Origin: a virus
Direction: 5' to 3' (one strand)
DNA length: 64,000 bases
IMG/VR virus record: IMGVR_UViG_3300047557_002442
Span: 37,220 to 101,219 of that record
Shown: positions 45,549 through 59,952 of the stretch, piece by piece
Layout: every line of letters starts with the position of its first letter
Position numbering within the stretch: the first letter of the stretch is position 1
The notes under the pieces: generated by a model
What the model was told of the DNA's origin: nothing
Database searches by the model: none
The model's input: only the letters and a program-made list of their open reading frames with translations
Translations under genes and position numbers: made by a program

Positions 45549-45550
45549 TT

Positions 45551-45624
45551 TGGAGCGGGATAAGGGAATCGAACCCTCACCAAAAGATTGGAAATCTTTT
45601 GTTCTGCCATTAAACTAATCCCGC
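45551..45624 (-). tRNA. tRNA-Gly (TCC)
   Basis: Acceptor GCGGGAT/ATCCCGC, discriminator T, CCA encoded, anticodon TCC. Confidence 0.9.
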
Positions 45625-45815
45625 AGTCCAACTGTTAGCAACTTATGTCCTCACCGTTGGCGTTTGGACGGCCTAATACGTTTAGGAAGACGTTTGGGAG
45701 TTATCCTCCCTAATGACCGAATCCTCATACGTCTATAAGGCAATAACTGTAAATTCAGTTTAGCATTTGCACCCTGACACTACATCGCAGGACAAAGTGG
45801 CTCGGTTCATTTATA
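45625..45815 (-). ncRNA. Candidate structured non-coding RNA in the tRNA array
   Basis: 191 bp with no gene. On the minus strand an outer stem AGACGT/ACGTCT encloses GGGAG-CTCCC and is followed by CCTAA-TTAGG, then a CCGT..ACGG element. Position within the tRNA transcript recalls the T4 stable RNAs C and D. No homology claimed. Confidence 0.35.
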
Positions 45816-46382
45816 CTATGCTGCAAATCTTGAATATCTTGGTAGCTTAGCCTTCAAGTAATCCATTTGGTCAGCAACAACGTTTCTGTTTTGTAAAATA
45901 AAATGTTCCCAACGACATGGTCTATATGGAACATACAGTAAGTGCATTTTAGCTTCTTCTGGTGTTCTGTTAGACTTTGTTTCGTTACAGTCCTTACATG
46001 CAGTTACAGAGTTTTCCCAAGCATTAGTACCACCACGACTTTTTGGAAGTACATGGTCTCTTGTTAGCTTTTCAGGATGAAACTCTCCACCGCAGTAGGC
46101 ACAGATATGATGGTCTCTACGGAACAGTAAATGGTTGCCATGTGTATTGATAGTTGGTCTATCAAACCGACGTTTGCATTCACCTTCAATAGCGATAATA
46201 GATTTGGCAACAATCACACTACGGTCGCCAGTTTTTCTTTGAGTACCACCATGGAACGTAGCTATGTCATCACCTAGCTCCCATACTACTTTGTCTGATG
46301 CATAGTAGTGAATGGCTTCTTCCATAGAAAGCCATTTGAATGGATTGCCAGCAATGTCCAAACCTAATATTCTAACGTCCAC
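45816..46382 (-). CDS. HNH endonuclease
   Basis: 188 aa from GTG 46382 (AGGAGATATC upstream). The C-terminal HNH domain has CAYCGG, LTRDHVLPKSRGGTNAWENSV and CKDCNETKSNRT: zinc knuckles plus the DH-N-N core. The N-terminal 90 residues are of unknown fold. Typical phage or mobile-intron type endonuclease, embedded in the tRNA array; it may be a homing enzyme or a restriction-like nuclease. Confidence 0.85.
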   Translation of the reverse strand: MDVRILGLDIAGNPFKWLSMEEAIHYYASDKVVWELGDDIATFHGGTQRKTGDRSVIVAKSIIAIEGECKRRFDRPTINTHGNHLLFRRDHHICAYCGGEFHPEKLTRDHVLPKSRGGTNAWENSVTACKDCNETKSNRTPEEAKMHLLYVPYRPCRWEHFILQNRNVVADQMDYLKAKLPRYSRFAA

Positions 46383-46390
46383 GATATCTC

Positions 46391-46807
46391 CTATTCCACT
46401 TCTATCCAGGTGTAATCACCCAGCCATTTTACTTGACAGATATAATCATAATGTTTAGGTGCACCACAACTCCAGTCTGTTGGACCATGTCGCGTTAGTA
46501 GTGTACCACCACGCTTCATATCTCTGGCTAGCCAGTATGTTTCTCCATTATGAATCTGGAAGTCATACTTAGCAGCATGTACCCAATCCGTTACTTCTAA
46601 CCTTCGTTTGATACTCTCGGCCTGTTTCTGTAGTACCTTAACAAGGTCCATGATACGGTCATACTCTTGTTGAGCGTGCATACGAGCAACATTCAACATC
46701 ACATCCTTTTGCTGAGTAACTGGAACCAACTCGAACTTTGGTGCTCCTATATCCATTGGATATGTGAGACTGTGATGCCGCATTGGATCTTGATCAGTTA
46801 TTTTCAT
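46391..46807 (-). CDS. DUF2452-like conserved protein
   Basis: 138 aa. TYPMDIGAPKFELVPV at the N-terminus and the C-terminal DWSCGAPKHYDYICQVKWLGDYTWIEV match DUF2452, found in T4-like phages and marine bacteria, function unknown. In between, a helical VKVLQKQAESIKRRLE segment. Lies inside the tRNA array. Confidence 0.75.
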   Translation of the reverse strand: MKITDQDPMRHHSLTYPMDIGAPKFELVPVTQQKDVMLNVARMHAQQEYDRIMDLVKVLQKQAESIKRRLEVTDWVHAAKYDFQIHNGETYWLARDMKRGGTLLTRHGPTDWSCGAPKHYDYICQVKWLGDYTWIEVE

Positions 46808-46845
46808 ATCATAATATTCATTGACAACTTGGATGTTTTATTTAT

Positions 46846-46920
46846 TGGTAGGAGCACAGAGACTCGAACTCTGAAAGTCTGGTTAAAAGCCAGATATGAT
46901 AGCCATTTCATCATACTCCC
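46846..46920 (-). tRNA. tRNA-Lys (TTT)
   Basis: Acceptor GGGAGTA/TGCTCCT, A73, CCA, anticodon TTT in CTTTTAA loop. Confidence 0.88.
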
Positions 46921-46922
46921 AT

Positions 46923-46999
46923 TGGTGCGGATGGTCAGATTCGAACCGACACTTTACGGATTTTAAGTCCGTTGACTCTACCTATTGGCCTACATCCGC
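46923..46999 (-). tRNA. tRNA-Leu (TAA), short variable loop
   Basis: Perfect 7-bp acceptor GCGGATG/CATCCGC, A73, CCA, anticodon loop CTTAAAA. The variable loop is only about five bases, whereas bacterial tRNA-Leu has a long arm. Confidence 0.8.
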
Positions 47000-47061
47000 A
47001 GCTGGAACTTCATAGAGATACAGGCTCTCAGTTCCGATTGCTTTCCTGTATTGCATTATAT

Positions 47062-47138
47062 TGGTGCCCAAGGAGGGATTCGAACCCACACTGTACAGTG
47101 TTTGAAACTGTCGCCTCTACCTATTGCGCTACTTGGGC
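47062..47138 (-). tRNA. tRNA-Leu (CAA), short variable loop
   Basis: Acceptor GCCCAAG/CTTGGGC, A73, CCA; anticodon stem ACAGT/ACTGT around TTCAAAC. Class I variable loop; one mismatch in the T-stem. Confidence 0.78.
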
Positions 47139-47189
47139 ATTGTCTTACCTGTAAGTCATATTACGAATTATGACTTAGATATAAGTGAC

Positions 47190-47264
47190 TGGTGGTAATG
47201 AGTGGACTTGAACCACTAACATTCTCCGTATGAAGGAGGTGGACTACCATTGTCCTACATTACC
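47190..47264 (-). tRNA. tRNA-Met or tRNA-Ile2 (CAT)
   Basis: Acceptor GGTAATG/CATTACC, A73, CCA, anticodon loop TTCATAC. Confidence 0.85.
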
Positions 47265-47271
47265 TAAATTC

Positions 47272-47346
47272 TGGGGTCACCGAGGAGGTTCGAACTCCCA
47301 CTGTAAGAGCCACAATCTTACGTGCTGCCATTACACTACGGTCACC
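47272..47346 (-). tRNA. tRNA-His (GTG)
   Basis: Anticodon loop TTGTGGC, C73 with the extra 5' G (G-1) that is the histidine identity element, CCA encoded. One G-G mismatch in the acceptor stem. Confidence 0.85.
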
Positions 47347-47449
47347 ATTGTTGCTGTTCTCCCCCACTCTCGGATTGCAGCATATATGAGCTTAACGTAC
47401 TCATATTCCCTAGAACGTCTACAGGCATAGGCGCCTACCCTGTAAATTC
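47347..47449 (-). other. 103-bp spacer with palindromic hairpin
   Basis: No gene. The minus strand carries TACAGG-g-TAGGCGCCTA-tg-CCTGTA, a near-perfect hairpin, close to the start of tRNA-Trp. Possibly an RNA-processing element. Confidence 0.4.
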
Positions 47450-47523
47450 TGGCTCCGGTGGAGGGAATCGAACCCCCACTAACGGTTTTGGAGACCGCTG
47501 CGCTACCATTACGCCACACCGAA
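47450..47523 (-). tRNA. tRNA-Trp (CCA)
   Basis: Anticodon loop CTCCAAA, G73 as expected for Trp, CCA encoded, acceptor TTCGGTG/CACCGGA. Confidence 0.88.
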
Positions 47524-47531
47524 GTAAAACT

Positions 47532-47609
47532 TGGAGCATAGAGTGGGATTTGAACCCACGGGGTTACAGTTTTGCAGACTGTTGCTTTGGACCACTCAGC
47601 CATCTATGC
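47532..47609 (-). tRNA. tRNA-Cys (GCA)
   Basis: Anticodon loop CTGCAAA; T73 (U73) is the Cys identity base; acceptor GCATAGA/TCTATGC. Its first bases contain the TAG stop of the preceding protein gene. Confidence 0.88.
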
Positions 47610-48011
47610 TTCGATTGGGAACAACTCCGTAAACTTAGCTGTCATAATTTCAACTAACTTAGGGTCTCTATAAGCATAGTCATCTTCGATCTCTAAGTTG
47701 ATTACTTGTTTGTAACTAAAGTCTGTAATCACATTTGCCAATTCATTCTGCATAGCATTGATTTCGAGTTGCTGGAATGAATCCATACAAAGTATAACAT
47801 CAGCCCAAACAACCAATGCATGTGTTACAGGAACAATGGCATATTCCAAACTGGTCCCTGCACATCTGGTATTAAAATTCCAAGGTGGGCTGCTAAGTAT
47901 ATGAGCAGCGGTAGGAGAGCGCAAACAACCAGCGCTACACACAGTAAGTACTCGGCGATGTCTTCCTTGATACGCATTTTGCACAACTCCTAATTGATTT
48001 CTTTTAATCAT
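47604..48011 (-). CDS. Low-molecular-weight tyrosine-phosphatase-like protein
   Basis: 135 aa from ATG 48011 (GGAG 6 bases upstream). VLTVCSAGCLRSPTAAHIL holds the Cx5R phosphatase loop; the C-terminal EIEDDYAYRDPKLVEIM provides the general-acid Asp region. Likely a phosphatase for arsenate or tyrosine-phosphate type substrates, or a regulator. The stop codon lies inside tRNA-Cys; an early promoter is upstream. Confidence 0.75.
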   Translation of the reverse strand: MIKRNQLGVVQNAYQGRHRRVLTVCSAGCLRSPTAAHILSSPPWNFNTRCAGTSLEYAIVPVTHALVVWADVILCMDSFQQLEINAMQNELANVITDFSYKQVINLEIEDDYAYRDPKLVEIMTAKFTELFPIEA

Positions 48012-48030
48012 CATTTACTCCAAGAAATAC

Positions 48031-48059
48031 ATTATCATGTATCGCATTTATTAAGTCAA
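48031..48059 (-). promoter_or_regulatory. Early promoter within the tRNA array
   Basis: -35 TTGACT, 17 bp, -10 GATAAT; starts right after tRNA-Phe, drives the phosphatase gene and downstream tRNAs. Confidence 0.75.
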
Positions 48060-48060
48060 C

Positions 48061-48136
48061 TGGTAGGACCCCACAGAATCGAACTGTGTCCTCATGCTCT
48101 TCAGGCACGCGCGCAGACCACGTACGCCAGAGTCCT
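48061..48136 (-). tRNA. tRNA-Phe (GAA)
   Basis: Anticodon loop CTGAAGA, A73, CCA, acceptor AGGACTC/GGGTCCT. Confidence 0.88.
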
Positions 48137-48143
48137 ATAAATC

Positions 48144-48220
48144 TGGTCCTCGGAGGTGGAATCGAACCACCACTCTATCGATTATCAGTCGATTGTTTTG
48201 AACCATTAAACTACCCGAGG
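48144..48220 (-). tRNA. tRNA-Ile (GAT)
   Basis: Anticodon stem ATCGA/TCGAT around CTGATAA, A73, CCA, acceptor CCTCGGG/TCCGAGG. Confidence 0.88.
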
Positions 48221-48222
48221 TT

Positions 48223-48297
48223 TGGCGCGGCTGGTAGGATTCGAACCTACATAAGAGGGCTTAGAAGACCCTTGCACATCCCTTGTACCACAACCGC
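48223..48297 (-). tRNA. tRNA-Arg (TCT)
   Basis: Anticodon loop CTTCTAA, G73, CCA, acceptor GCGGTTG/CAGCCGC. Confidence 0.88.
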
Positions 48298-48302
48298 AAA
48301 AC

Positions 48303-48378
48303 TGGCACCCTTGGAAGGAATCGAACCTCCATCATGACGTTCGTAGCGTCGTATTCTAATCCGTTGAACTACAAGGGT
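48303..48378 (-). tRNA. tRNA-Arg (ACG)
   Basis: Anticodon loop CTACGAA, G73, CCA, acceptor ACCCTTG/CAAGGGT. Wobble A34 needs inosine editing by host TadA. Confidence 0.88.
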
Positions 48379-48379
48379 A

Positions 48380-48889
48380 TTACTCTTCCACAATCTCGTC
48401 GTCAGCCATCAAGATTGGACATAATTTTTCTACACTGTCAAACATATGTCTGAGTCTATTTTTATCATATCCATACGAGTCTAATTTGTTTAATACTTTT
48501 TCATTAAAGTCTGGAGCAGCTTCTCTATGATGACGGTGATGTCTATAGAATGAATGCATTCTAAACAATCCATATGCATGCTTTGTTGATAAAGCCATAA
48601 TTGCACATGCACTATCACAATGATCTAAACTATACCAATAAACGTTTCCATGTTTATTAACTGCATCCATTGCTTCAAACAAATCAGCACTTGTGCCACC
48701 AGCACTTGAAACATAGAAACTTATAGTCTTGTTAGGATTACTCTTAACTATTTGAATAATCTCATCATACTCTTCTTTGTCTAGCTTACCGACTATTCTA
48801 TATTCACTGTCAGCTACCTTCTGTACTACAGGAATAGTAGCAGTACAAGCAGTTAATAATAAAAGTATGAATATAAGTTTCACATGCAT
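48380..48889 (-). CDS. Lipoprotein with ClpP/SppA-like serine-protease fold
   Basis: 169 aa. Signal and lipobox LLTAC (Cys15). FYVSSAGGTSADLFEAMDAVNKH resembles the glycine-rich ClpP oxyanion region and HCDSACAIMAL the nucleophile-Ser turn; the following SFYRHHRHHRE may supply the His. ClpP-fold periplasmic lipoproteins are rare. Role unknown; could process envelope proteins. Confidence 0.6.
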   Translation of the reverse strand: MHVKLIFILLLLTACTATIPVVQKVADSEYRIVGKLDKEEYDEIIQIVKSNPNKTISFYVSSAGGTSADLFEAMDAVNKHGNVYWYSLDHCDSACAIMALSTKHAYGLFRMHSFYRHHRHHREAAPDFNEKVLNKLDSYGYDKNRLRHMFDSVEKLCPILMADDEIVEE

Positions 48890-48895
48890 CCTAAT

Positions 48896-48971
48896 TGGCG
48901 ACCCGTAAGGGAATCGAACCCTTATGTCCCACTAGACAGGCGGGCATAATAATCCACTATATGAACGGGCC
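48896..48971 (-). tRNA. tRNA-Asp (GTC)
   Basis: Anticodon loop CTGTCTA, G73 (Asp identity), CCA, acceptor GGCCCGT/ACGGGTC. Confidence 0.88.
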
Positions 48972-48976
48972 AAAAC

Positions 48977-49050
48977 TGGTTGCGGGCGTCCGAATTGCAC
49001 GGCGTCTCGAGCTTATGAGGCTCGCGAGCTACTGTTGCTCCACCCCCGCA
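48977..49050 (-). tRNA. Initiator-like tRNA (CAT) with degenerate elbow
   Basis: TGCGGGGGTGGAGCA at the 5' end, TAGCTCG and CTCATAA are as in bacterial fMet tRNA; A73, CCA. But the D-loop lacks the GG pair, the T-loop reads TGCAATT instead of TTCAAAT, and the T-stem has mismatches. May be defective or specialised. Confidence 0.65.
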
Positions 49051-49056
49051 GTAATC

Positions 49057-49132
49057 TGGTGCCCCCTGTCGGATTTGAACTGACAACCTATCGCTTACAA
49101 GGCGATTGCACTACCAATTGTGCTAAAGAGGC
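49057..49132 (-). tRNA. tRNA-Thr (TGT)
   Basis: Anticodon stem ATCGC/GCGAT around CTTGTAA, A73, CCA. Confidence 0.88.
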
Positions 49133-49133
49133 A

Positions 49134-49209
49134 TGGTACTCAGTGTAGGAATCGAACCTACATAATCTATCTTGTAAGGATAGTCTCTAACCACTCGAGT
49201 CAACTGAGT
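49134..49209 (-). tRNA. tRNA-Val (TAC)
   Basis: Anticodon stem CTATC/GATAG around CTTACAA, A73, CCA, acceptor ACTCAGT/ACTGAGT. Confidence 0.88.
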
Positions 49210-49425
49210 ATAGGTGTTAAGCTACTCGCACTACCGAGCCCTTAACTGAGGTGTTTACCCTGTCTCAACTGTGGCCCTTATGGATGGTACAGTCTCAACC
49301 CACGAATCTTTCAAGGCTCCCTACAACGGGACTTCGAGGTGGCCGCTAAGCCGTATCGTGTGCACCCTGCTCTTATGGTTTGGCAATTACCCACTTTCTT
49401 CAAGTAAAAGTGTAAACTAGTGTTC
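49210..49425 (-). ncRNA. Candidate structured non-coding RNA in the tRNA array
   Basis: 216 bp with no gene. Minus-strand hairpins include GTTAAG..CTCG..CGAG..CTTAAC near the 3' end, CCC..GGG, and CACTTT..AAAGTG near the 5' end. Shares CAGGGTGCA with the spacer at 45.6-45.8 kb. Unknown function. Confidence 0.35.
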
Positions 49426-49499
49426 TGGAGCGGATAACGAGGTTCGAACTCGTGATTCAACCTTGGCAAGGTCGTGTATTACCACTATACTATATCCGC
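49426..49499 (-). tRNA. tRNA-Gly (GCC)
   Basis: Anticodon loop TTGCCAA, T73, CCA, acceptor GCGGATA/TTATCCGC-type pairing. Confidence 0.88.
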
Positions 49500-49500
49500 A

Positions 49501-49567
49501 TGGTGGGGTGTCTTAACAGTGTACTTCCGACACCCCGAACACGTAATGTACACACGTGCCTGCAGCT
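49501..49567 (-). other. Spacer with tRNA-like CCA-ended hairpin
   Basis: On the minus strand GGGGTGTC pairs with GACACCCC around a 16-base loop and is followed by ACCA, just like an acceptor stem with encoded CCA but without the rest of a tRNA. Perhaps a tRNA remnant or minihelix. Confidence 0.4.
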
Positions 49568-49639
49568 TGGTGGACCGTGAGGGAGTCGAACCCTCCAGGA
49601 GTTGCGTGCAAGGCATCTCTGTACCCCGGTACACAGCCC
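49568..49639 (-). tRNA. tRNA-Ala (TGC)
   Basis: Anticodon loop CTTGCAC, A73, CCA, acceptor GGGCTGT/ACGGTCC. One mismatch in the anticodon stem. Confidence 0.85.
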
Positions 49640-49713
49640 ATAATACATCTAGGCACTGATGAGTCAGTTGTTTAAAACTAGCGCTCAATGGAATCCCGCT
49701 TCGTTCCTAAAAC

Positions 49714-49789
49714 TGGTCTCGCATGAAGGACTCGAACCTTCGAACTCTCCGCCCCAAACGGAGTGGTATAGCCGCTAACCGAATGCGAG
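49714..49789 (-). tRNA. tRNA-Pro (TGG)
   Basis: Anticodon stem CTCCG/CGGAG around TTTGGGG, A73, CCA, acceptor CTCGCAT/ATGCGAG. Confidence 0.88.
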
Positions 49790-49796
49790 ATAAAAC

Positions 49797-49873
49797 TGGC
49801 TGCCTAGGGAGGGCTCGAACCTCCGACATCCTGATTAACAGTCAGGCGCAACTACCAACTGTGCTACTAGACA
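49797..49873 (-). tRNA. tRNA-Asn (GTT)
   Basis: Anticodon stem CCTGA/TCAGG around CTGTTAA, G73 (Asn identity), CCA. Confidence 0.88.
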
Positions 49874-49882
49874 ATAATTCTT

Positions 49883-49929
49883 GGGATCATGTTGGCCAAG
49901 GCCTTTTTCGTGCTTGGCGCCGCGATCCC
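49883..49929 (-). other. Stable stem-loop in GC-rich spacer
   Basis: GGGATC/GATCCC outer stem with CCAAG/CTTGG inner stem on the minus strand, in a spacer of 116 bp that is GC-richer than its surroundings. No gene. Confidence 0.4.
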
Positions 49930-49989
49930 TCCGGCCTCCTCCCCACAACTTCAATTGTTGCCGCTCAAAGTTGCCCGAGGATATTTGTT

Positions 49990-50067
49990 TGGTGGGCTCT
50001 CTCGGACTCGAACCGAGACGCAACTCGTTCTAAGCGAGCTAGGTATGCCAATTCCCGTCAAAAGCCC
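49990..50067 (-). tRNA. tRNA-Leu (TAG), short variable loop
   Basis: Acceptor GGGCTTT/AGAGCCC, A73, CCA, anticodon loop CTTAGAA, T-arm CTCGG/CCGAG. Variable loop of about five bases instead of a long arm. Confidence 0.8.
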
Positions 50068-50069
50068 TT

Positions 50070-50161
50070 TGGCGGAGAATATTGGATTTGAACCAATGAT
50101 ACGATTTTACTCATATTCCTTCTTAGCAGGAAGGTGTCTTAAACCACTCGACCAATTCTCC
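50070..50161 (-). tRNA. tRNA-Ser (GCT)
   Basis: Class II tRNA with a long variable arm, anticodon stem CCTTC/GAAGG around CTGCTAA, G73, CCA. Its 5' half is also the 3' end of a protein gene. Confidence 0.88.
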
Positions 50162-50518
50162 GTATTCTGTTTCAGGGTCAATAATAAGAACTGTTCTAGG
50201 TACTATATTTTTATTAATATACACAACCTTATTATCATCTGCCAAGTAGAATGCCCACCCATCAATTAACGTACGATCAACAGGGACAACCTTACCATTT
50301 ACAACAGACTTTGATGCTAATTCGTATCTATTTGACACCCTATTTTTTATTCGCTCTCTATATTTTACTTGCAATCTATATGTCTGTCCACATTCATCAA
50401 CTGCAATTAAATCAATAGGGGAATGATCATCAAATGCAGGAAACACATAGAATCCCTTTTCTTGAAGATCATCAATAACTTTAATTAACCCTTTAACACC
50501 TTTTTGATTTACATTCAT
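50123..50518 (-). CDS. PD-(D/E)XK endonuclease-like protein overlapping tRNA-Ser
   Basis: 131 aa. GFYVFPAFDDHSPIDLIAVDECGQTYRLQVKYR is a clear PD-(D/E)XK core (P-x-D, then Q-V-K) of the PDDEXK_5/I-Ssp6803I kind. An N-terminal helix (KGLIKVIDDLQEKG) completes the domain. The last 13 codons and the TAA lie inside tRNA-Ser. It may be a homing-type nuclease associated with the tRNA array or a junction resolvase. Confidence 0.72.
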   Translation of the reverse strand: MNVNQKGVKGLIKVIDDLQEKGFYVFPAFDDHSPIDLIAVDECGQTYRLQVKYRERIKNRVSNRYELASKSVVNGKVVPVDRTLIDGWAFYLADDNKVVYINKNIVPRTVLIIDPETEYGELVEWFKTPSC

Positions 50519-50550
50519 AATTATATCCTAAATAATTATTTATGTAAGCC

Positions 50551-50571
50551 CAGAGGTTGAGTCAACCTCTG
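50551..50571. promoter_or_regulatory. Perfect palindrome upstream of the nuclease gene
   Basis: 10-bp arms CAGAGGTTGA/TCAACCTCTG around one base. On the minus strand it contains a TTGACT that could be a -35 box, so it may be an operator; a clean -10 is not evident. Confidence 0.5.
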
Positions 50572-50650
50572 TTACAAATAAAATTGGGCGGTTTTCTACG
50601 CTCTCCTAACCTCGAATACATTAAGTCGTAGCTTTCTCCCAAAATAAAAC

Positions 50651-50741
50651 TGGCGGAAGGATGGCGGAATCGAACCCCTGGCTATCCCTAGCTCGCTCTG
50701 CTTTCAAAACAGACGCAACATCCCCGGTTGCATAACCTTCC
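50651..50741 (-). tRNA. tRNA-Ser (TGA)
   Basis: Class II with variable arm GCGAGCTAGGGATAGC, anticodon stem TCTGT/GCAGA around TTTGAAA, G73, CCA. Confidence 0.85.
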
Positions 50742-50748
50742 GTAAAAC

Positions 50749-50823
50749 TGGCAGAGGTACTAGGACTCGAACCTAGACGAACAGCTTCAAAGACTGTTGT
50801 GCTAACCATTACACTATACCCCA
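50749..50823 (-). tRNA. tRNA-Gln (TTG)
   Basis: 5' TGGGGTA as in bacterial tRNA-Gln, anticodon loop CTTTGAA, G73, CCA; weak first pair typical of Gln. Confidence 0.88.
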
Positions 50824-50830
50824 ACAAAAC

Positions 50831-50913
50831 TGGTGGGTGTTGAGGGAATCGAACCCCCTTGCCGAAGCAACTGTTTTACAGACAGCCGTCAATTCCAGTA
50901 TGACCTAACACCC
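50831..50913 (-). tRNA. tRNA-Tyr (GTA)
   Basis: Anticodon loop CTGTAAA, class II variable arm TTGCTTCGGCAA as in bacterial Tyr, A73, CCA. Confidence 0.88.
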
Positions 50914-51062
50914 AATAACCATATAGAAACACACTCTGACTCATCCATTTGGCGTCGACTCCTTTTGAATGCGTTGGATTAATAACCCTCCAACCAGGAC
51001 CCTTTCGGTCTTCATTACTCATAGCTCGCGATCTAATTTCATGAATTGAATGTGCTTTTATA

Positions 51063-51138
51063 TGGTACACGGTACGGGAATCGAACCCGTCCTACTGACG
51101 TGAAAGGCCAGTGTTCTAAACCGATAAACTAACCGTGT
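51063..51138 (-). tRNA. tRNA-Glu (TTC)
   Basis: Anticodon loop CTTTCAC, A73, CCA, acceptor ACACGGT/ACCGTGT. First tRNA of the array in transcription order. Confidence 0.88.
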
Positions 51139-51509: not shown

Positions 51510-51517
51510 TATAAATA
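51510..51517 (+). promoter_or_regulatory. T4-type late promoter of the curli/cyclase operon
   Basis: Perfect TATAAATA on the plus strand, 18 bases before the GTG of the first gene. It marks the operon as late-expressed. Confidence 0.65.
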
Positions 51518-51534
51518 TAACAGGAGGAATAGCT

Positions 51535-51810
51535 GTGGATTTTTTTAAACTTGTAGCAGAAGTAGGTTTTCCAATTGCCGCAGCTGTTGCTGCTGGTTAC
51601 TTTGTCTTCTTAACTTTAAAGTTCATTCTTGCAGGAGTTACATCTTCTGTCAAAGGAATGAGTGGTATCATCACAGCTCTTGATAAAAGAGTAGCAACCA
51701 TGAACCATGATGTTGTACGCATTGATACAAAAGTTAGTCATGCTTTAGGTATCCCACCTGATTTAGATAGAATCGCACGTGCCGAGCAATCTGACGCTCG
51801 TCGTGACTAA
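51535..51810 (+). CDS. Small membrane protein, first gene of the curli operon
   Basis: 91 aa from GTG 51535 (AGGAGGAATAGCT upstream). EVGFPIAAAVAAGYFVFLTLKFI is a single TM helix; the rest is a charged coiled coil ending DLDRIARAEQSDARRD. A paralogue lies at 52046 (same GFPI-AA-GYFVF motif). Perhaps an inner-membrane adaptor of the exporter or a holin-like protein. Confidence 0.6.
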   Translation: MDFFKLVAEVGFPIAAAVAAGYFVFLTLKFILAGVTSSVKGMSGIITALDKRVATMNHDVVRIDTKVSHALGIPPDLDRIARAEQSDARRD

Positions 51811-51923: not shown

Positions 51924-52055
51924 ATGTTCAAAGAACGTAATCTCATGTTCCAAAAGGAACGTGATCGTATGATATGGACTGATCTGGATTTGGCGATTGG
52001 TTGTGTCGTAGCTTATTTCATTGGTATGATTATAGGATTTCTATTATGGATATAG
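51924..52055 (+). CDS. 43-aa membrane protein
   Basis: MFKERNLMFQKERDRMIWTD, then a C-terminal TM helix (LAIGCVVAYFIGMIIGFLL). AAGGA lies 7 bases before the ATG. Its TAG overlaps the start of the next gene (ATGGATATAG). Confidence 0.55.
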   Translation: MFKERNLMFQKERDRMIWTDLDLAIGCVVAYFIGMIIGFLLWI

Positions 52056-52318
52056 CAGCATTAATTAGCAAGTATGGGTTTCCTATAGTTGCGGCAGCAG
52101 GATTAGGGTATTTTGTTTTCTATGTATGGAAGTGGGTAACAACTGACATTAAGCCAGTTGTTGGTGAATCGAATCAAGTTCTTATTAACTTGATCGATCG
52201 CGTAAGAATGTTAGATAACGACCTAATCAGATTAAATCAAAGAGTAAACGTTTATCTTTCATTGAAAGAATCAAATGATAAAAAATCTACCAATAATATT
52301 GATAGCAGTAGTAACTAG
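52046..52318 (+). CDS. Small membrane protein, paralogue of the 51.5-kb gene
   Basis: 90 aa from ATG 52046 (an upstream open stretch belongs to the previous gene). MDIAALISKYGFPIVAAAGLGYFVFYVWKWV mirrors the paralogue; the tail is coiled-coil (DRVRMLDNDLIRLNQRVNVYL). Tandem duplication. Overlaps csgF by 44 bases. Confidence 0.6.
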   Translation: MDIAALISKYGFPIVAAAGLGYFVFYVWKWVTTDIKPVVGESNQVLINLIDRVRMLDNDLIRLNQRVNVYLSLKESNDKKSTNNIDSSSN

Positions 52319-52754
52319 CGTATATGGTGGTGAACTTGTACATCAATTTAATAGCCCTTCCTTCAATGGACAAGGGTTCAGTAGTCACGTATTAACAATC
52401 AAGCAATTAGAAGATCAAGCAAAAGAAAAAAATGAAGCTGCTGAAGATGCAATAAGAGCAAGAGCAGAAGCAGCTGCAAAAGATACCCCACAAGCAAGAT
52501 TCATTGCAAACTTAGAATCACGTATATACAGTCAACTTGCAAAACAATTAACAGATAGTATGTTCGGTGAAGGTGCTACATGTGTAACACCAGGTGTGAT
52601 ATGTGGTACAATTGATAACCTAGGTGGTAATTCTATCACTTGGATGCTTGGTGAAGGTAGTAATTCTGGTAACATTGTTATTACAATCCAGGACTTAAAC
52701 AACAGTAGTAACAGAACAGTAATGGCCGTACCTGTTGGTACGTTCTATTTCTAG
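52275..52754 (+). CDS. csgF: CsgF-like curli assembly factor
   Basis: 159 aa, E. coli CsgF is 138. Signal peptide (LPIILIAVVTSVYG), then ELVHQFNSPSFNGQGFSSHVLTIKQLE, matching the CsgF start E-L-x-F-x-N-P-S-F-G-G-N that inserts in the CsgG pore. The helical middle and the beta C-terminus (NIVITIQDLNNSSNRTVMAVPVG) correspond to the CsgF tail. Located immediately before csgG, with which it forms the outer-membrane channel cap. Confidence 0.78.
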   Translation: MIKNLPIILIAVVTSVYGGELVHQFNSPSFNGQGFSSHVLTIKQLEDQAKEKNEAAEDAIRARAEAAAKDTPQARFIANLESRIYSQLAKQLTDSMFGEGATCVTPGVICGTIDNLGGNSITWMLGEGSNSGNIVITIQDLNNSSNRTVMAVPVGTFYF

Positions 52755-52763
52755 GAGCCGTCA

Positions 52764-53576
52764 ATGAAAAGCCTCTTAGCTTTGTTAATGGTTACTTTAT
52801 TGACTGGATGTGCTTCCTCTATGGTTGCTGGTGCAAAGAAATTTGAAGCACCAGAAGTCCAACAAGGGACATATCTACAACAGAACAAAATTGATGTACC
52901 AGCAGATGGACCAATTCCAGTTGCTGTATATTCATTCCAAGATAAGACTGGTCAACGTAAAAATGTTCCAAACATTGCCAGCTTTAGCTCAGCTGTAACA
53001 CAAGGTGCTGATGCTTACTTAATCAAGGCTCTACAAGATGTTGGTGAAGGTCGTTGGTTCACTGTGGTAGAGCGTGTAGGTTTAGATAATCTAATCAAAG
53101 AGCGTCAAATGATTAGACAAATGCGTGAACAATATCAAGGACGTGATGCAAAGCAATTACCTCCAATGATATTTGCTGGAATACTGATGGAAGGTGCAGT
53201 AACCGGCTACGATTCAAATGTTATGACTGGTGGTTATGGTATGAGAGTGCTCGGTATTGGAGCACAAACTCAATACCAATCAGACAGTGTAACTGTTACA
53301 TTAAGAACAGTCAGTGTCAATACTGGTGAAGTACTAACAACCGTAACTATAACTAAAACAATTCTTAGTTATATGGACAAATTTGGTATGTTACGATTTG
53401 TCGAAGCGGGTGAGCAAGCAATCGAGTCAGAGAGTGGTGTAAGTGTAAACGAAAGTATTAATCGCGCTACAGACTTAGCAATCCAAGCTGCAGTGATTGC
53501 TACAATCAAAGAAGGTGTTCGTAAAGGACACTGGAGCTACAAAGGGCAACCTATTGTAACTCCATTAATAAACTAA
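52764..53576 (+). CDS. csgG: CsgG-like curli secretion pore lipoprotein
   Basis: 270 aa, E. coli CsgG is 277. Lipobox LLTGCASS (Cys16). PIPVAVYSFQDKTGQRK, SSAVTQGADAYLIKALQDVGEGRWFTVVERVGLDNLIKERQ and PMIFAGILMEGAVTGYDSN are the CsgG family core; GIGAQTQYQSDSVTVTLRTVSVNTGEVL covers transmembrane hairpins. It should form the nonameric outer-membrane pore that exports curli-type subunits. GGAG before the ATG. Confidence 0.92.
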   Translation: MKSLLALLMVTLLTGCASSMVAGAKKFEAPEVQQGTYLQQNKIDVPADGPIPVAVYSFQDKTGQRKNVPNIASFSSAVTQGADAYLIKALQDVGEGRWFTVVERVGLDNLIKERQMIRQMREQYQGRDAKQLPPMIFAGILMEGAVTGYDSNVMTGGYGMRVLGIGAQTQYQSDSVTVTLRTVSVNTGEVLTTVTITKTILSYMDKFGMLRFVEAGEQAIESESGVSVNESINRATDLAIQAAVIATIKEGVRKGHWSYKGQPIVTPLIN

Positions 53577-53587
53577 AGGAGTAACAA

Positions 53588-54370
53588 ATGAAACTGTTTA
53601 GCAAACTATTTGGTATGGTGGCTTTAAGTTTCGCATTGTCATCTTTTGCTGTTGAAGCAACTGGACCAAATCGTGTATACATTGAACAAATTGGTAGTTC
53701 TAACTTGATTACAATTGAACAAGTTGGTGGTACTAATGATGTTGGTGGTACTGCTGGTTCAGCAACTGTTGACCAAACTGGTGTTACAACATTGACAGTT
53801 ACTGCACCTAGTGCAACAAACTATGGTACAGTAAATGGTAGTTCAAACCAATTGTCAATAAACCAACGTGGTAATGTTAACCAAGCACAATATAACGTTA
53901 AAGGTAATAACAATACCTATACAAGTAACGTGACTGGTAATGGTAATCAAACAAAACTAAATGTTGGTGATACAAACACAAGTGGTCTTCGTAATACTGT
54001 TAATGAGACTATAAATGGTAACAACAATATGCAAATTACTACTGTAGTTGGTAGTGATAATGCATTGTCTACAACTGTAACTGGTAGTAACAACCAACTT
54101 ACAAATACAGTAACAACAAGTAATGCAGATGTAACACATACTATTACAGGTAGTCGTAACATAGTAAACACACAACAAATTGATGCTGCTGGTGCAAATG
54201 GCCACAGCTTAACAAACTCCATCGTTGGTGATTACAATAGCGTTACAACACAGCAACAAGGTACAAACGATACTACTGTTAATATTGCAACAACTGGTGA
54301 TCATAATACTGTGACAGTACGTACAAGTAGCACAACAATACTCAACCCAGTTTCAGCAATCGCAAGATAA
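53588..54370 (+). CDS. Curlin-repeat (CsgA/CsgB-like) amyloid subunit
   Basis: 260 aa. Signal peptide (FGMVALSFALSSFAVEA). Mature part is Asn/Gln/Gly/Thr-rich with curlin-type repeats: NRVYIEQIGSSNLITIEQVGGTN near the start and several SNQLSINQRGNVNQAQ, GNNNTYTSNV, GNGNQTKLN variants. Such repeats stack into beta-solenoid amyloid. The adjacent pore genes make it the likely exported substrate. Repeat regularity decays toward the C-terminus. Confidence 0.85.
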   Translation: MKLFSKLFGMVALSFALSSFAVEATGPNRVYIEQIGSSNLITIEQVGGTNDVGGTAGSATVDQTGVTTLTVTAPSATNYGTVNGSSNQLSINQRGNVNQAQYNVKGNNNTYTSNVTGNGNQTKLNVGDTNTSGLRNTVNETINGNNNMQITTVVGSDNALSTTVTGSNNQLTNTVTTSNADVTHTITGSRNIVNTQQIDAAGANGHSLTNSIVGDYNSVTTQQQGTNDTTVNIATTGDHNTVTVRTSSTTILNPVSAIAR

Positions 54371-54371
54371 A

Positions 54372-55466
54372 ATGAAATACTGGTTTGTTATTTGTTTGCT
54401 ACTAATTAGTACAATTAGTTGGGCAGCAATAGGATCCGTCGTCGATACAAAAGGAACCTCTTGCTCCATTGAACGTGGAAAGCAAAAACTACCTGGTGAT
54501 AAAGGTGTTGGTATTGAAAGTATGGATACCTATATCACTGGTAGTTGTGTTGCTAACATTACATTCAAAGATGATACTAAAGTCAAAGTCACAGAAAATT
54601 CCAGACTTCTCATAGATGATTTTATTTTTGATCCAAAGCAATCAGATGCTGGAAAGTTAGCATTAAAGGTTGGAATGGGTACTGTTCGTTATGCATCAGG
54701 CCAAATCGCTAAAAACAATCCACAAAAAGTAGATATAAAAACGCCAACAGCTACTATTGCTGTTCGTGGTACAGATTTCAATATGACTGTTGACGAAACT
54801 GGACAGTCATTAATTATTCTTGTTCCTTCATGTAAAGAAGGTGAGAAGATAAAACAATACGAGCTTGAAGAGAACCAATGTAAGGTTGGTAAGATAGATG
54901 TAATTACAGTTGGTGGTACTGTTAGTCTTGATAAGGCATTTGAGGCAACATATGTCACAAGTGCAAACTTACCCCCAACTCCACCTGTTATCATCAATAC
55001 GGTTGAGGGTAATATCAGTAACAGTTTGATTATTGCAAAACCACAAGAAGTAATGAGAGCAAGTAGAGATAATAATAAGGCCAAACGTGATCTTGAGTTT
55101 GAGGAAGAGCAAGCAGAATCAAATAGACAGATTGTTCAAAGAATGAAACAGATGGAAGAACCACCTCCAGCTAAGGTTATGCCATATACATTTGATAATG
55201 GTAGCAAGGGATGTAATCCTTCAATAAACGTTTGTGTGGTTTTTGAAAAGCAGGATGTTCCTGAAGTACAACTAAGGGGTAGAGGGGTTGCCTTTCGTAG
55301 TAATCCTGATCACTATGATGAAGTAAAGACTCAAGGTTACGACTCTAATACGACCGTTAACATCACACATGATGATGCACCAGCAACTGCTTTGATAGGG
55401 TCTGGTGATCCAGGTGGTAACATTGTGAACATAAGACAAAATACTGGAGTTATAAAGACACAATGA
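54372..55466 (+). CDS. FecR-domain secreted protein
   Basis: 364 aa. Signal peptide (FVICLLLISTISWA). Residues about 20-150 form a FecR domain: AAIGSVVDTKGTSCSIERG, SRLLIDDFIFDPKQSDAGKLALKVGMGTVRYASGQ, and PTATIAVRGTDFNMTV. The C-terminal third is charged and low complexity (KAKRDLEFEEEQAESNRQ). FecR proteins transduce envelope signals and are often found beside CHASE2 cyclases in bacteria; here a CHASE2 cyclase is two genes away. Confidence 0.85.
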   Translation: MKYWFVICLLLISTISWAAIGSVVDTKGTSCSIERGKQKLPGDKGVGIESMDTYITGSCVANITFKDDTKVKVTENSRLLIDDFIFDPKQSDAGKLALKVGMGTVRYASGQIAKNNPQKVDIKTPTATIAVRGTDFNMTVDETGQSLIILVPSCKEGEKIKQYELEENQCKVGKIDVITVGGTVSLDKAFEATYVTSANLPPTPPVIINTVEGNISNSLIIAKPQEVMRASRDNNKAKRDLEFEEEQAESNRQIVQRMKQMEEPPPAKVMPYTFDNGSKGCNPSINVCVVFEKQDVPEVQLRGRGVAFRSNPDHYDEVKTQGYDSNTTVNITHDDAPATALIGSGDPGGNIVNIRQNTGVIKTQ

Positions 55467-56581
55467 AAAAACTCCTTCTAATTTTACTACTCCTATGTAA
55501 TGTAGCTTTGGCTAACACAACAGGGCTATCATATACAGTATGTGCTGCAGGAGGTCCTACACCTACAAGAACCTGCTCAGGTAGAACTATACTTGCTACT
55601 GGTGTAAGTCAGAATATTAATTTTGACTGGGGTGGCGGTGGTGTTATGGGTACAGGTAGAGGTGATGGTGTTCTTGTAAACTGGCAAGGGTTTATATTAT
55701 GGCCTGGTACAAGTGGACAACAAACTGTATTTTTCTATTCCGCTTCAGATGATGGTTTCAGTGTAGCTATAAACGGTACATATGCAATCAACAGTTGGCG
55801 TGAACAAGGTGCAAGTTGGTACAATGGTAGTGGTAGTATGACTCTTACTGCTGGACAAGTATATGCTGTCGATATATGGTACTATGAAAATGGTGGTGGT
55901 GCAGCTGCTTTTTGGTATTGGAATACTGGCAGTGGTATTGTACTTGTACCATCAACAAATCTAGCAACAACAAATAACTATTGGGTACCAAGTCTTTGTT
56001 GTGGAGGTAGTAGTGCCCCTATTACAATTGATCTTACGCATTCAAATAGACTGAATACTTTCACAAACCGTACAACAAATGATAGTCGTGTATATGTTGA
56101 ACAGATTGGTAACTTTAATGAAGTCACTATACAACAAACTGGAACAAGAAACAACTACCTAGAATATACTGGTAATGGAATGTCCAATGACGTGAACGTA
56201 ACTCAATCTGGTAATGCTTCAACCACTGCAAATTATATCGATCTCAATGTAAGTGGAAGTAATAATACAGTCAACATGACTCAAACAAGTACTGGTGGAA
56301 CCAAGAGTATGTTTGTGGATGTTCAAAATAACAATAACAATGTTAATATACAGCAGAAGGATAATGGAAGTCATTACATTGATCTAACTATAACTGGTGG
56401 TAGTAAGAACATTGATATTCTTCAGCAAGGAAGTGCTGCTCATCGAGCAGATATAACCTTAACTGGAGCTAGCCCAAGAGATTTGTCCCTTACCCAAACT
56501 GGTACTACTCAACAATCATATAGTATCAACAGTAATTGTACTTCATCGTGTCAACCAATCACGGTGATACAGGGACAATAA
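55463..56581 (+). CDS. PA14-like domain fused to curlin repeats
   Basis: 372 aa. Signal peptide (LLLILLLLCNVALA). Residues about 45-170 resemble a PA14/GLEYA carbohydrate-binding fold: VLVNWQGFILWPGTSGQQTVFFYSASDDGFSVAINGTYAINSW with GQVYAVDIWYYENGGGAAAFWYW. From about 210 onward, curlin-type repeats (NDSRVYVEQIGNFNEVTIQQTG, NDVNVTQSGN) nearly match the other curlin protein. Possibly the nucleator or an adhesive tip subunit. Confidence 0.78.
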   Translation: MKKLLLILLLLCNVALANTTGLSYTVCAAGGPTPTRTCSGRTILATGVSQNINFDWGGGGVMGTGRGDGVLVNWQGFILWPGTSGQQTVFFYSASDDGFSVAINGTYAINSWREQGASWYNGSGSMTLTAGQVYAVDIWYYENGGGAAAFWYWNTGSGIVLVPSTNLATTNNYWVPSLCCGGSSAPITIDLTHSNRLNTFTNRTTNDSRVYVEQIGNFNEVTIQQTGTRNNYLEYTGNGMSNDVNVTQSGNASTTANYIDLNVSGSNNTVNMTQTSTGGTKSMFVDVQNNNNNVNIQQKDNGSHYIDLTITGGSKNIDILQQGSAAHRADITLTGASPRDLSLTQTGTTQQSYSINSNCTSSCQPITVIQGQ

Positions 56582-56589
56582 ATACATAT

Positions 56590-57120
56590 ATGAAAAGAAG
56601 ACCATTGTGTTTTATAACACGCGATAAAGAATATGAGCTTATCCAACAACTATTAACGATAGTAGATAGCTCTACATTTGATCCTGATAATACAGCTATT
56701 ATTATGGCATCACCAGATTACTCTGCAACCGTTGCAATGCATTTATCACATGCATGGTCACAGAGAGGGGAACCACTTCCCATAATACCAGTTGATGTTG
56801 CATATCCTGACGAAACCCATTTGGATTATTACAATGCCAAGTTCCAGCATGAGTTTGAATGGTGGACAATGGCTAACAATCATCCAAAGAAACTTGTGTT
56901 GGTTGAAGCAGGAATCATCAGAGGTGGTAACTGGAAGTGGTTATTACAAACACTAATAAGTGAATATGGATATGCACGTGAGGATATAACTCTTATAGCC
57001 TTGTGTGAGAATATTCATTCAGAAGTCAAATCTGATTATGTTGGGCAATACTTTGACAATGAAAAAGAAGAGCTAATGTTTTACTACGAAAGGTATAATA
57101 AGCATTGGCCAATTTTTTAA
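56590..57120 (+). CDS. Conserved protein of unknown function in the curli/cyclase operon
   Basis: 176 aa from ATG 56590, chosen because the open frame before it lies within the previous gene. No signal peptide, so cytoplasmic. LPIIPVDVAYPDE and KKLVLVEAGIIRGGNWKWLLQTL suggest an alpha/beta (Rossmann or phosphoribosyltransferase-like) fold, but the PRPP motif is not canonical. Lies 9 bp before the cyclase gene. Confidence 0.6.
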   Translation: MKRRPLCFITRDKEYELIQQLLTIVDSSTFDPDNTAIIMASPDYSATVAMHLSHAWSQRGEPLPIIPVDVAYPDETHLDYYNAKFQHEFEWWTMANNHPKKLVLVEAGIIRGGNWKWLLQTLISEYGYAREDITLIALCENIHSEVKSDYVGQYFDNEKEELMFYYERYNKHWPIF

Positions 57121-57129
57121 GGAGTACCA

Positions 57130-59154
57130 ATGAAAAGATTGCTTTCGCCATGGCTTGCACTTTTAACTCTTTCACTTCTTGTTGTTCTAAGAATTTCAGA
57201 TCCGAGTTTCATTGAGAGTATTAGATTAAGATATTTCGACACTCTAATCACAAGCCAGCCTCAAACAATATCCCAACAAATACATGTAGTTAACATCGAT
57301 GATGCAGCCATAAATAAGTATGGTCAATATCCATTCCCGAGAGGTCAATATGCAGAAATTATACAACATCTTTACAGCAATGGTGCTGGGTTGGTTGTTG
57401 CTGGGCTGTATCTTCCTGACAGTGATCGTTTTGGACAGGACAGTCGACTGGCTGACATCCTGGATAAGCACCCTGTAGTCTTTCCACATACTGGAGTTGA
57501 TTATGAGGTTAATAAAGAAATTTATAGACCAGGTGTGTCCGAAATTGGTAGTCCTGCTTCTTCTTTTGCCGTTAGTTATCCTGGTATACTACCCAACGTT
57601 CCTGCTGTTAATGAACATGCTGCTGGTATTGGAGTAGTTAATGTTCTGCCTGAGATTGATGGTGTGGTTCGTCGTGTACCTATGGTCGTTGCCAGTGCTG
57701 GCAGACTCTACCCATCCATTACTCTTGAGACCCTTAGAGTCGCAGCAGGGGATCCAAGTTTCCAAGTCAAATCCTCAGACTATGGAATCGAAGCAGTTAG
57801 AATCCCTCACTTCAAAACAATCCAAACAGATGCTATCGGAAGAGTCTGGATTGACTGGTCTACAAAACCAACAGAACATTCACTTGCGAATCTACCGAAA
57901 TCTTTCGACGGATCAATTGTTATATTGGGAGTCACTGCTAGGGGACTCAACAACCCAGTTGCGACCGCCAGAGGAGAGATCTATCCTCATTATCTACAAT
58001 CTGCCATATTAGATACTCTTGTATCTGGAAAGAACATAAGCAGACCTGATTGGATGGATGGGGCTGAAATACTTGGTACAATTTTATTAGCTATTATAGC
58101 TATTCTTTTAACGAGGTGGACATATGGGTTTGTGGCTTTTGGTATTATTATCGGTGCTGTATATTATACTAGCAGTAGTGCATTTGGGACGTACTCCTAC
58201 TTGGTTGACTGTAGCTTCCCAATTGTTAGTCTATGCTTTGTTTATATACATTCTTATACAGTCAAGTTCCTGTCTGAGCTAAAACAGAAACTCCAAATAA
58301 AGAAACAATTCGGTACATACTTGTCTCCTGCAATGGTTGAAAAGTTGCAGAAGAATCCAGAGCTTTTAGCTTTGGGTGGTGAGTCAAGAGAGTTGTCTAT
58401 TATGTTTACGGATGTTCGTGGTTTCACTACTATCTCTGAACATTATGGTAAAGATGTACAAGGTCTAACCAAGATTATGAACCGTTACATGACTGCTATG
58501 ACTCGTAAGATTATAGACAATAACGGTACACTTGACAAATACATTGGTGATGCACAGATGGCATTCTGGAATGCTCCATTAGATGAACCTAACCATGCTA
58601 AGAAAGCTGTCAAGACTGCATTAGAGATGCTTGAAGATTTGGAAGCATTCAATACTGAAATTAAACGAGAAGGTATACCAGCTTTTGGTATGGGTCTTGG
58701 TATCAATACTGACACAGTTGTTGTTGGTAACATGGGTTCCGATCAACGTTTTGATTATACTTGTCTTGGTGATGGAGTCAATCTAGCTTCAAGACTTGAA
58801 GGTCAAAGCAAACCTTATGGTGTTAAGATTGTAATTGGTTCTAAGACGGCTGAACAAGTTAAAGATGAATACCCAGTTGTTGAATTGGATTGTATTGCTG
58901 TTAAAGGTAAAACAGAAGGTGTTAACATTTATAGTATATGTGCTTATCAAGAAGACCACTACAAACTTCATAAGAAGTACTTAAAAGCATACTATGATGG
59001 TAATTGGGAAGATGGCGGAGCTATTTTCCTTGCGACACAACTTTCTGCAGATGGTCCACCAGATATGAGACAATACTATCTTAATATGATAGAAAGAATG
59101 TCTGAAGGTAAGCCTGATAACTGGGATGGTACATACAGAGCTACGTCAAAGTAG
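57130..59154 (+). CDS. CHASE2-domain class III adenylate cyclase
   Basis: 674 aa. TM helix at about 7-22, extracytoplasmic CHASE2 (about 30-310: QQIHVVNIDDAAINKYGQYPFPR, GVVRRVPMVVA), then three TM helices (about 315-385) and a cyclase domain. Catalytic residues are intact: SIMFTDVRGFT (metal Asp, ~425), LDKYIGDAQMAFW (substrate Lys and second metal Asp), FDYTCLGDGVNLASRLE (Thr and the transition-state Asn/Arg). AAGGAG before the ATG. It should make cAMP in response to an envelope signal. Confidence 0.9.
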   Translation: MKRLLSPWLALLTLSLLVVLRISDPSFIESIRLRYFDTLITSQPQTISQQIHVVNIDDAAINKYGQYPFPRGQYAEIIQHLYSNGAGLVVAGLYLPDSDRFGQDSRLADILDKHPVVFPHTGVDYEVNKEIYRPGVSEIGSPASSFAVSYPGILPNVPAVNEHAAGIGVVNVLPEIDGVVRRVPMVVASAGRLYPSITLETLRVAAGDPSFQVKSSDYGIEAVRIPHFKTIQTDAIGRVWIDWSTKPTEHSLANLPKSFDGSIVILGVTARGLNNPVATARGEIYPHYLQSAILDTLVSGKNISRPDWMDGAEILGTILLAIIAILLTRWTYGFVAFGIIIGAVYYTSSSAFGTYSYLVDCSFPIVSLCFVYIHSYTVKFLSELKQKLQIKKQFGTYLSPAMVEKLQKNPELLALGGESRELSIMFTDVRGFTTISEHYGKDVQGLTKIMNRYMTAMTRKIIDNNGTLDKYIGDAQMAFWNAPLDEPNHAKKAVKTALEMLEDLEAFNTEIKREGIPAFGMGLGINTDTVVVGNMGSDQRFDYTCLGDGVNLASRLEGQSKPYGVKIVIGSKTAEQVKDEYPVVELDCIAVKGKTEGVNIYSICAYQEDHYKLHKKYLKAYYDGNWEDGGAIFLATQLSADGPPDMRQYYLNMIERMSEGKPDNWDGTYRATSK

Positions 59155-59299: not shown

Positions 59300-59656
59300 A
59301 TGAAAAAGGTTCTAGTTTTACTCTTATTATCGCTAAATGCTATGGCAGTTGATTATAGCGATCACAAAGAACTCTATATGGCAAATGAAGCAGGTGGTGA
59401 AATTGTACTTACATTAGAACCCTGTGCATTTGCCGAAGCGAAGAAGCTTGGTTTTGAAAATAGATCATATGCTACTATTGCTGATGGTAGCATTAAGGAA
59501 GAGGGCTGCTGGCTTGCTCCAGATATGAAGGATGCTCCGCAAGTTCAAGGAATAGCTATTATTCCAATAGTAAACTTGTGGTACGATAATATAATCCTAC
59601 CGTTCCCTCAAAATATGTTTGAGCCACGATTACGAGCTCGAAAGGATACAATATGA
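59300..59656 (+). CDS. Small secreted protein (GCW type)
   Basis: 118 aa with signal peptide (VLVLLLLSLNAMA). Mature part contains GGEIVLTLEPC and EEGCWLAPD, a two-cysteine pattern shared with the next gene. AGGAGAACCG precedes the ATG. Family seen in several phages, function unknown. Confidence 0.6.
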   Translation: MKKVLVLLLLSLNAMAVDYSDHKELYMANEAGGEIVLTLEPCAFAEAKKLGFENRSYATIADGSIKEEGCWLAPDMKDAPQVQGIAIIPIVNLWYDNIILPFPQNMFEPRLRARKDTI

Positions 59657-59952
59657 GGGCAATAGCTTTTACTTTATTATTATCATTCTCAACTACTATA
59701 CTTGCTGATACATATCTCGTGTATGTTATCAATCAATATACAAGAGTTGTTTTAAATAAGCGTGAGTGTTTAGTTCCAGGATTGAATGGGAATGCTGCAG
59801 TTGTACAAAATGCTAAAGGACAATATATACAAGGTTGTTGGCATGTTGATCGTAACAACAGCAACCATGTTCGCATTGATTGGAATAATCCAGCAGCACC
59901 TGGCGACTTTAGCGTTATCGAAGCAAATAAATTTAATTCTGTTACAGAATGA
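59653..59952 (+). CDS. Small secreted protein (GCW type), paralogue
   Basis: 99 aa with signal peptide (AFTLLLSFSTTILA). KRECLVPGLNG and YIQGCWHVDRN repeat the C...GCW pattern of the preceding protein; the ATG overlaps its stop. Likely a disulfide-bonded periplasmic domain. Confidence 0.6.
   Translation: MRAIAFTLLLSFSTTILADTYLVYVINQYTRVVLNKRECLVPGLNGNAAVVQNAKGQYIQGCWHVDRNNSNHVRIDWNNPAAPGDFSVIEANKFNSVTE

Follow-up and report, generated by a model that had tools for sequence, protein, structure and literature searches.

A curli (type VIII secretion, T8SS) module including a FecR gene and an adenylate cyclase gene was described in pelagiphages in 2022 (PMC9599517), curli genes without a cyclase having been noted earlier (PMC7029224). 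The pelagiphage modules display the order csgF, csgG, curlin, fecR, second curlin and cyclase, with small membrane protein genes upstream. Some phages carried csgFG and FecR genes without a cyclase (PMC9599517), which implies that curli function does not strictly need the enzyme. A comparable locus occurs in Methylophilales phage Melnitz; the corresponding paper discussed the pore only, though the Melnitz annotation includes a cyclase, and no clumping was seen among infected cells (PMC9004378). On the bacterial side, FecR genes accompany CHASE2 sensors in FecR/CHASE2-cyclase clusters of Campylobacterota (PMC9239204) and in a Burkholderia biofilm operon where the CHASE2 protein is a kinase (PMC5192318). 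Among open-access papers, none was found that reports enzymatic activity for such a phage cyclase.

The locus presented here is a further case of the published kind, cyclase included. It shares its gene order with the pelagiphage module and with Melnitz, whose cyclase is 39% identical to ours, as is that of pelagiphage HTVC008M. In contrast to the pelagiphage module, it contains three additional genes (orf176, dn1 and dn2), its cyclase and those of similar phages form a supported clade of their own, and the second substrate residue of its enzyme is Thr (T544) instead of Ser. New elements of this study are a second, extensive group of T4-like phages, the near-invariance of catalytic residues (Melnitz excepted), purifying selection, enrichment of a promoter motif, two Caulobacteraceae loci, and FecR genes lying directly before CHASE2 cyclases in other Alphaproteobacteria. 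An earlier note had read the gene as a phage-encoded class III cyclase with a CHASE2 sensor, acting late on an envelope-stressed cell. This interpretation was partly supported; its curli context had been missed, and the gene proved to be the terminal one of a curli and FecR module, not a stand-alone oddity.

The window (the whole stretch of 64,000 nucleotides analysed here) belongs to a virus record of 101,219 bases. A DnaB-like helicase gene and uvsX adjoin the cyclase gene on the minus strand, while T4-like virion structural proteins and ribonucleotide reductase are encoded left of the module. The virion protein that was tested had its nearest relatives in cyanophages and Puniceispirillum phage HMO-2011, and the helicase in Stenotrophomonas phage DLP6, cyanophages and Melnitz. 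Judged by these genes, the record is that of a T4-like phage. The nearest virion and helicase relatives (cyanophages, Melnitz, DLP6) were too distant for naming a host, which is presumably Gram-negative given the outer-membrane pore encoded in the module. As the gene functions look bacterial, a phage-bacterium chimera or bacterial contamination of the cyclase region was considered; it was rejected and its probability is negligible, since phage genes flank the region on both sides and the same module occurs on tens of independent viral contigs and in the isolates HTVC008M and Melnitz. Elsewhere in the window, 26 tRNA genes covering most amino acids lie on the minus strand beside the curli module (45470-51138). 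A plus-strand open reading frame (41921-42523) displayed a weak NUMOD3 match below cut-off and possibly encodes a homing endonuclease. Another region (19400-21550) encodes a large protein with a cytidyltransferase-like N-terminus and a C-terminal part common to many PHROGs, an unusual fusion.

The module comprises nine genes in the order tmA, tmB, csgF, csgG, curlin, fecR, PA14-curlin, orf176 and cyclase (Table 1). Intergenic gaps range from -44 to +11 bp from tmB onward and from -4 to +11 bp between csgF and the cyclase gene, the latter being the last gene of this tight, operon-like curli module. Genes csgF, csgG and a curlin-repeat gene are thus adjacent in a phage genome, with fecR and the cyclase gene in the same cluster. 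The curlin assignment is the weak member of this set: its Curlin_rpt match (0.003) falls under the Pfam gathering cut-off, and its loose strand motif was more frequent than the shuffled mean without going beyond the shuffled maximum. PA14 was also observed in loci L005 and L024 and in HTVC008M, and the PA14-curlin protein could be a fibre-borne adhesin binding carbohydrates. Genes dn1 and dn2 are occasional members, with homologues near the modules of L072-L074. A known domain was sought in orf176, dn1 and dn2 and none was found.

Table 1. Features of the curli-cyclase module and of its predicted cyclase, in window positions
Feature	Position	Strand	Basis
TATAAATA, T4-type late promoter motif, module head	51510..51517	+	exact match, 25 bp ahead of the start of tmA
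tmA, 91 aa single-TM protein, first module gene	51535..51810	+	GTG start, AGGAGG at 51522-51527
tmB, 90 aa single-TM paralogue of tmA	52046..52318	+	sequence similarity
csgF homologue (curli pore accessory protein)	52275..52754	+	Pfam CsgF 1.5e-9
csgG homologue (curli outer-membrane pore)	52764..53576	+	Pfam CsgG 1.1e-49
curlin-type repeat protein, candidate amyloid subunit	53588..54370	+	Curlin_rpt 0.003, homology, position
fecR, secreted FecR-domain protein	54372..55466	+	Pfam FecR 5e-10; alignment; fold match
PA14-curlin, PA14 domain and curlin-like repeats, secreted, candidate fibre adhesin	55463..56581	+	PA14 1.3e-6
orf176	56590..57120	+	PHROG 29004 1e-38; 7 loci, i.e. some modules only
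CHASE2 class IIIb adenylate cyclase (predicted)	57130..59154	+	674 aa; Pfam domains, alignment, model
membrane helix 1 of cyclase, residues 8-23	57151..57198	+	AlphaFold model
CHASE2 sensor, residues 16-322, including parts of flanking helices	57175..58095	+	Pfam, model
membrane helices 2-4 of cyclase, residues 309-394	58054..58311	+	AlphaFold model
cyclase catalytic domain, residues 420-601	58387..58932	+	Pfam, alignment, fold match
dn1 and dn2, a pair of small secreted proteins encoded after the cyclase	59300..59952	+	signal-like N-termini

This association is not confined to the window. Genes tmA, tmB, csgF, csgG, curlin and fecR were each recorded in 53 of the 56 window-like loci with enough upstream sequence, and the same genes in 17-19 of the 19 HTVC008M-like loci. 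Even where the cyclase gene is divergent from fecR and csgGF (L066, L070, L079 and L081), the genes are still together. The search of other phage genomes that the earlier note had proposed uncovered the cyclase on many viral contigs in addition to HTVC008M and Melnitz: relatives were encoded in at least 595 and at least 585 stretches in two overlapping viral scans. Other phage matches obtained by tblastn (Acinetobacter phage MD-2021a records and a faecal phage) were confined to the catalytic domain, with identities of 27-29%.

The head of the module carries TATAAATA, which we take to be the T4 late promoter motif. Of 48 distinct regions upstream of tmA in window-like phages, 21 contained the motif (dinucleotide shuffles gave a mean of 1.6 and a maximum of 6), and in HTVC008M-like phages it preceded csgF in 14 of 22 (shuffles 0.5, maximum 3). 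It was absent or almost absent upstream of the genes inside the module (tmB, csgG, curlin and fecR). The total number in the window was not above chance (4 against 5.4 expected), so that only position and conservation carry weight. When the loci were viewed more widely, a late-type motif was also displayed by 32 of the 371 other genes that have free space in front of them, as expected for late genes of T4-like phages. In the window, a TATAAATA site precedes the cytidyltransferase-like fusion gene as well. From the place of the motif and its conservation we infer that the module is transcribed late in infection, which gives the late expression formerly just asserted a promoter-based argument.

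The two genes at the module head, tmA and tmB, occupy the position of genes called histidine kinase in pelagiphages (PMC9599517). That 'histidine kinase' looks like a pair of single-TM proteins of about 90 aa, too small for a kinase. Neither a holin nor a histidine kinase assignment was retained, as no Pfam match was obtained for either; tmA and tmB are possibly a holin-like or regulatory pair. They bear on a reading in which the whole module would time lysis, CsgGF acting as a gated pore or pinholin, tmA/tmB as holin-like proteins and the cyclase as a timer that monitors the periplasm. Such a role was proposed for CsgGF of Melnitz (PMC9004378), and it would suit both the late promoter motif and the presence of two small single-TM proteins in nearly every module. 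However, the curlin-repeat and PA14-curlin genes are conserved and would be superfluous for a pure pore, and tmA/tmB lack a Pfam holin match; we consider lysis timing quite unlikely.

The cyclase open reading frame spans exactly 57130-59154, with an ATG start behind a good ribosome-binding site (AAGGAG at 57119-57124). Its product matched two Pfam domains, both above the curated cut-offs: CHASE2 at residues 16-322 (E 5e-35, 121.6 bits against a cut-off of 26.3) and Guanylate_cyc at residues 420-601 (E 2e-19, 70.7 bits against 21.9). The AlphaFold model, built on an alignment of 55 sequences from which the Melnitz row was left out, had a mean pLDDT of 89.8. It displayed an alpha/beta CHASE2 domain surrounded by helices 8-23, 309-327, 333-355 and 362-394, i.e. 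one helix before the sensor and three after it, as in CHASE2 receptors. The predicted enzyme has its CHASE2 domain in the periplasm and its cyclase domain in the cytoplasm. The cyclase domain closely resembled those of CyaB from P. aeruginosa (3r5g; Z 24.1, 2.1 A over 188 residues) and CyaC from Spirulina (Z 23.2, 1.9 A over 186 residues), the VIA/Foldseek matches spanning this domain alone. Both known enzymes share the catalytic residues of the window cyclase but carry other sensor domains, and their identity to it is about 34%, in the catalytic domain only. The Guanylate_cyc match and the cyclase fold, together with phage genes on both sides, bear out the assignment as a phage-encoded class III nucleotidyl cyclase.

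Conservation of the active site, another claim of the earlier note, was confirmed by alignment with solved cyclases and 160 phage homologues. The metal-binding aspartates are D428 and D474, the substrate lysine is K470 with T544 as second substrate residue, and the transition-state pair is formed by N551 and R555, which completes the set of two Asp, Asn and Arg typical of class III cyclases. A Lys/Thr substrate pair is the class IIIb combination, and CyaB likewise displays Thr at the second position in the alignment. ATP is hence the expected substrate, and the residues point to an ATP-specific class IIIb enzyme. Thr at this position has also been described as a probable predictor of regulation by bicarbonate among sAC-like cyclases (PMC3383692). 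Across the 161 phage cyclases, D428, K470 and D474 were invariant, R555 was present in all except one incomplete sequence, and N551 was missing only from Melnitz and that same incomplete sequence. Position 544 was occupied by Thr in 81 sequences and by Ser in 78. The Melnitz cyclase (L082, 9935-11983) differs by S for N551 and D for T544; with its catalytic Asn lost, the enzyme may be weakened or inactive in one lineage or more. A degenerate pseudo-cyclase was rejected for the window and, Melnitz and the incomplete sequence aside, for the 160 phage homologues.

Selection acted unevenly along the protein. Over 588 sequence pairs, median dN/dS was 0.09 in the cyclase domain and 0.20 in CHASE2, with 0.34-0.35 in the membrane and C-terminal parts, values that provide a ranking rather than precise estimates because pairs are non-independent and many synonymous distances are large. 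On this ranking, the cyclase domain is the most constrained part and appears to be under strong purifying selection.

The gene order csgF-csgG-curlin-curlin-fecR-cyclase was also found on two Caulobacteraceae chromosomes (L084, 5992-12049; L187, 6245-12262), which represent the direct bacterial counterpart of the phage module. The second locus comes from another species, and its FecR is 93% identical to that of the first. Both loci lie among unrelated cellular genes: those for glycosyltransferases, an S9 peptidase and a TonB receptor around one, and around the other genes that, judged by sequence alone, resemble those of acyl-CoA dehydrogenases and amidohydrolases. Their cyclase is 45% identical to that of the window and falls within the phage-curli clade, and their FecR and CsgFG are homologous to the phage proteins; in contrast to the phage modules, they are chromosomal and lack tmA/tmB, PA14-curlin and the late promoter motif. 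Such loci are rare: a FecR resembling that of L084 to this degree turned up in 1 of 385 genomes sampled from the class and in 2 of 199 from the family. In a tree built by a quick method, the curli-linked cyclases of phages and Caulobacteraceae formed one starred clade apart from other bacterial cyclases, inside which the Caulobacteraceae pair joined the window-like phages with a support of 93 (unstarred) and the HTVC008M clade stayed outside. Transfer between Caulobacteraceae and phages in either direction fits this tree. The shared gene order, along with the altered active site of Melnitz, could suggest that the cyclase came along as a passenger of a bacterial curli operon and plays no part in infection. 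Against this, a gene of 2 kb has stayed intact in hundreds of phages that diverged deeply; the low dN/dS of the cyclase (about 0.09) argues strongly against a decaying passenger, a reading that we judge highly improbable.

Phage FecR proteins displayed, upon alignment, a signal-like hydrophobic N-terminus, the FecR domain and a C-terminal curlin-like strand (GGxNxITIxQ). In a structure model, poor beyond the FecR domain, the fold of this domain resembled the periplasmic part of anti-sigma regulators (4m0h and 6ovk). Neither a cytoplasmic anti-sigma domain nor a membrane helix, both expected of a FecR anti-sigma regulator, was found before the FecR domain, where the signal-like segment is the sole feature. 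Pairing of FecR with CHASE2 cyclases also occurred in bacteria. Among 80 bacterial loci of cyclase relatives, nearly all named as Alphaproteobacteria, 45 contained a FecR gene (L084 counted), which in 31 of these ended 7-370 bp upstream of the cyclase gene. As in the Campylobacterota clusters (PMC9239204), the FecR gene immediately precedes that of a class III cyclase with a CHASE2 sensor; outside Caulobacteraceae, these loci differ from the phage module in that no curli genes were found and in the mostly much larger size of their FecR proteins. In L086-L163 (Bradyrhizobium and other Alphaproteobacteria), giant FecR-domain proteins, often 900-3000 aa, are encoded directly upstream of the CHASE2 cyclases and are probably large proteins of the surface whose sensor is linked to cAMP. 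The recurrence of the gene pair in phages and bacteria makes FecR the best candidate partner of CHASE2, and a contact between the two proteins may be conjectured from this association.

A phage-encoded cAMP receptor was also considered and rejected: searches of this record, which is a fragment, and of 14 related phage records, among which those of Melnitz and HTVC008M are complete, gave no cyclic-nucleotide-binding domain. The reader of the signal would therefore have to be supplied by the host. The two Caulobacteraceae genomes encode 6 and 7 such domains.

The gene is thus most likely that of a late-expressed, catalytically competent, cAMP-forming sensor within a phage curli module. In our best model, which we hold to be somewhat better than an even bet, curli are produced late and FecR and CHASE2 feed back into host cAMP. 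Points against it are the phages with csgFG and FecR but no cyclase, the altered Melnitz enzyme, the lack of clumping among Melnitz-infected cells, and a FecR model that is poor outside the FecR domain. CsgG and CsgF would form an outer-membrane pore, through which curlin and PA14-curlin would leave the cell to build surface fibres. The periplasmic FecR protein would be the likely partner of the CHASE2 sensor, and both would report the state of the periplasm, e.g. export of fibre subunits. Upon this report, paired cyclase domains would turn ATP into cAMP, to be read by cAMP-binding proteins of the host. More specifically, though with less than even odds, the module may be a complete second-messenger device spanning the envelope, a viral sensor-effector loop in which late FecR-CHASE2 would sense curli subunits or fibre assembly as its ligand and target host regulators through cAMP, a possible benefit for the phage being that fibre-mediated aggregation is coordinated with the end of infection.

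A cyclase active in host takeover would act differently, raising cAMP in order to reprogram host metabolism, motility or surface via CRP-type regulators, its operon sharing with curli genes reflecting common origin and late timing only. Retention of the catalytic residues, the constraint on the catalytic domain and the need for a host-encoded reader all agree with such a role. However, late expression leaves little time for reprogramming, and the near-constant co-occurrence with csgF, csgG, curlin and FecR, rearranged modules included, together with the retained CHASE2 domain, points to a module-specific signal. We therefore regard host takeover as unlikely and favour curli-linked feedback.

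So far, phage modules of this kind were a curiosity of SAR11 and OM43 phages, and the present results indicate that they are widespread. If the model is true, lytic phages would carry their own sensor-linked second-messenger enzyme tied to surface fibres, which would be an unusual way of steering the host.
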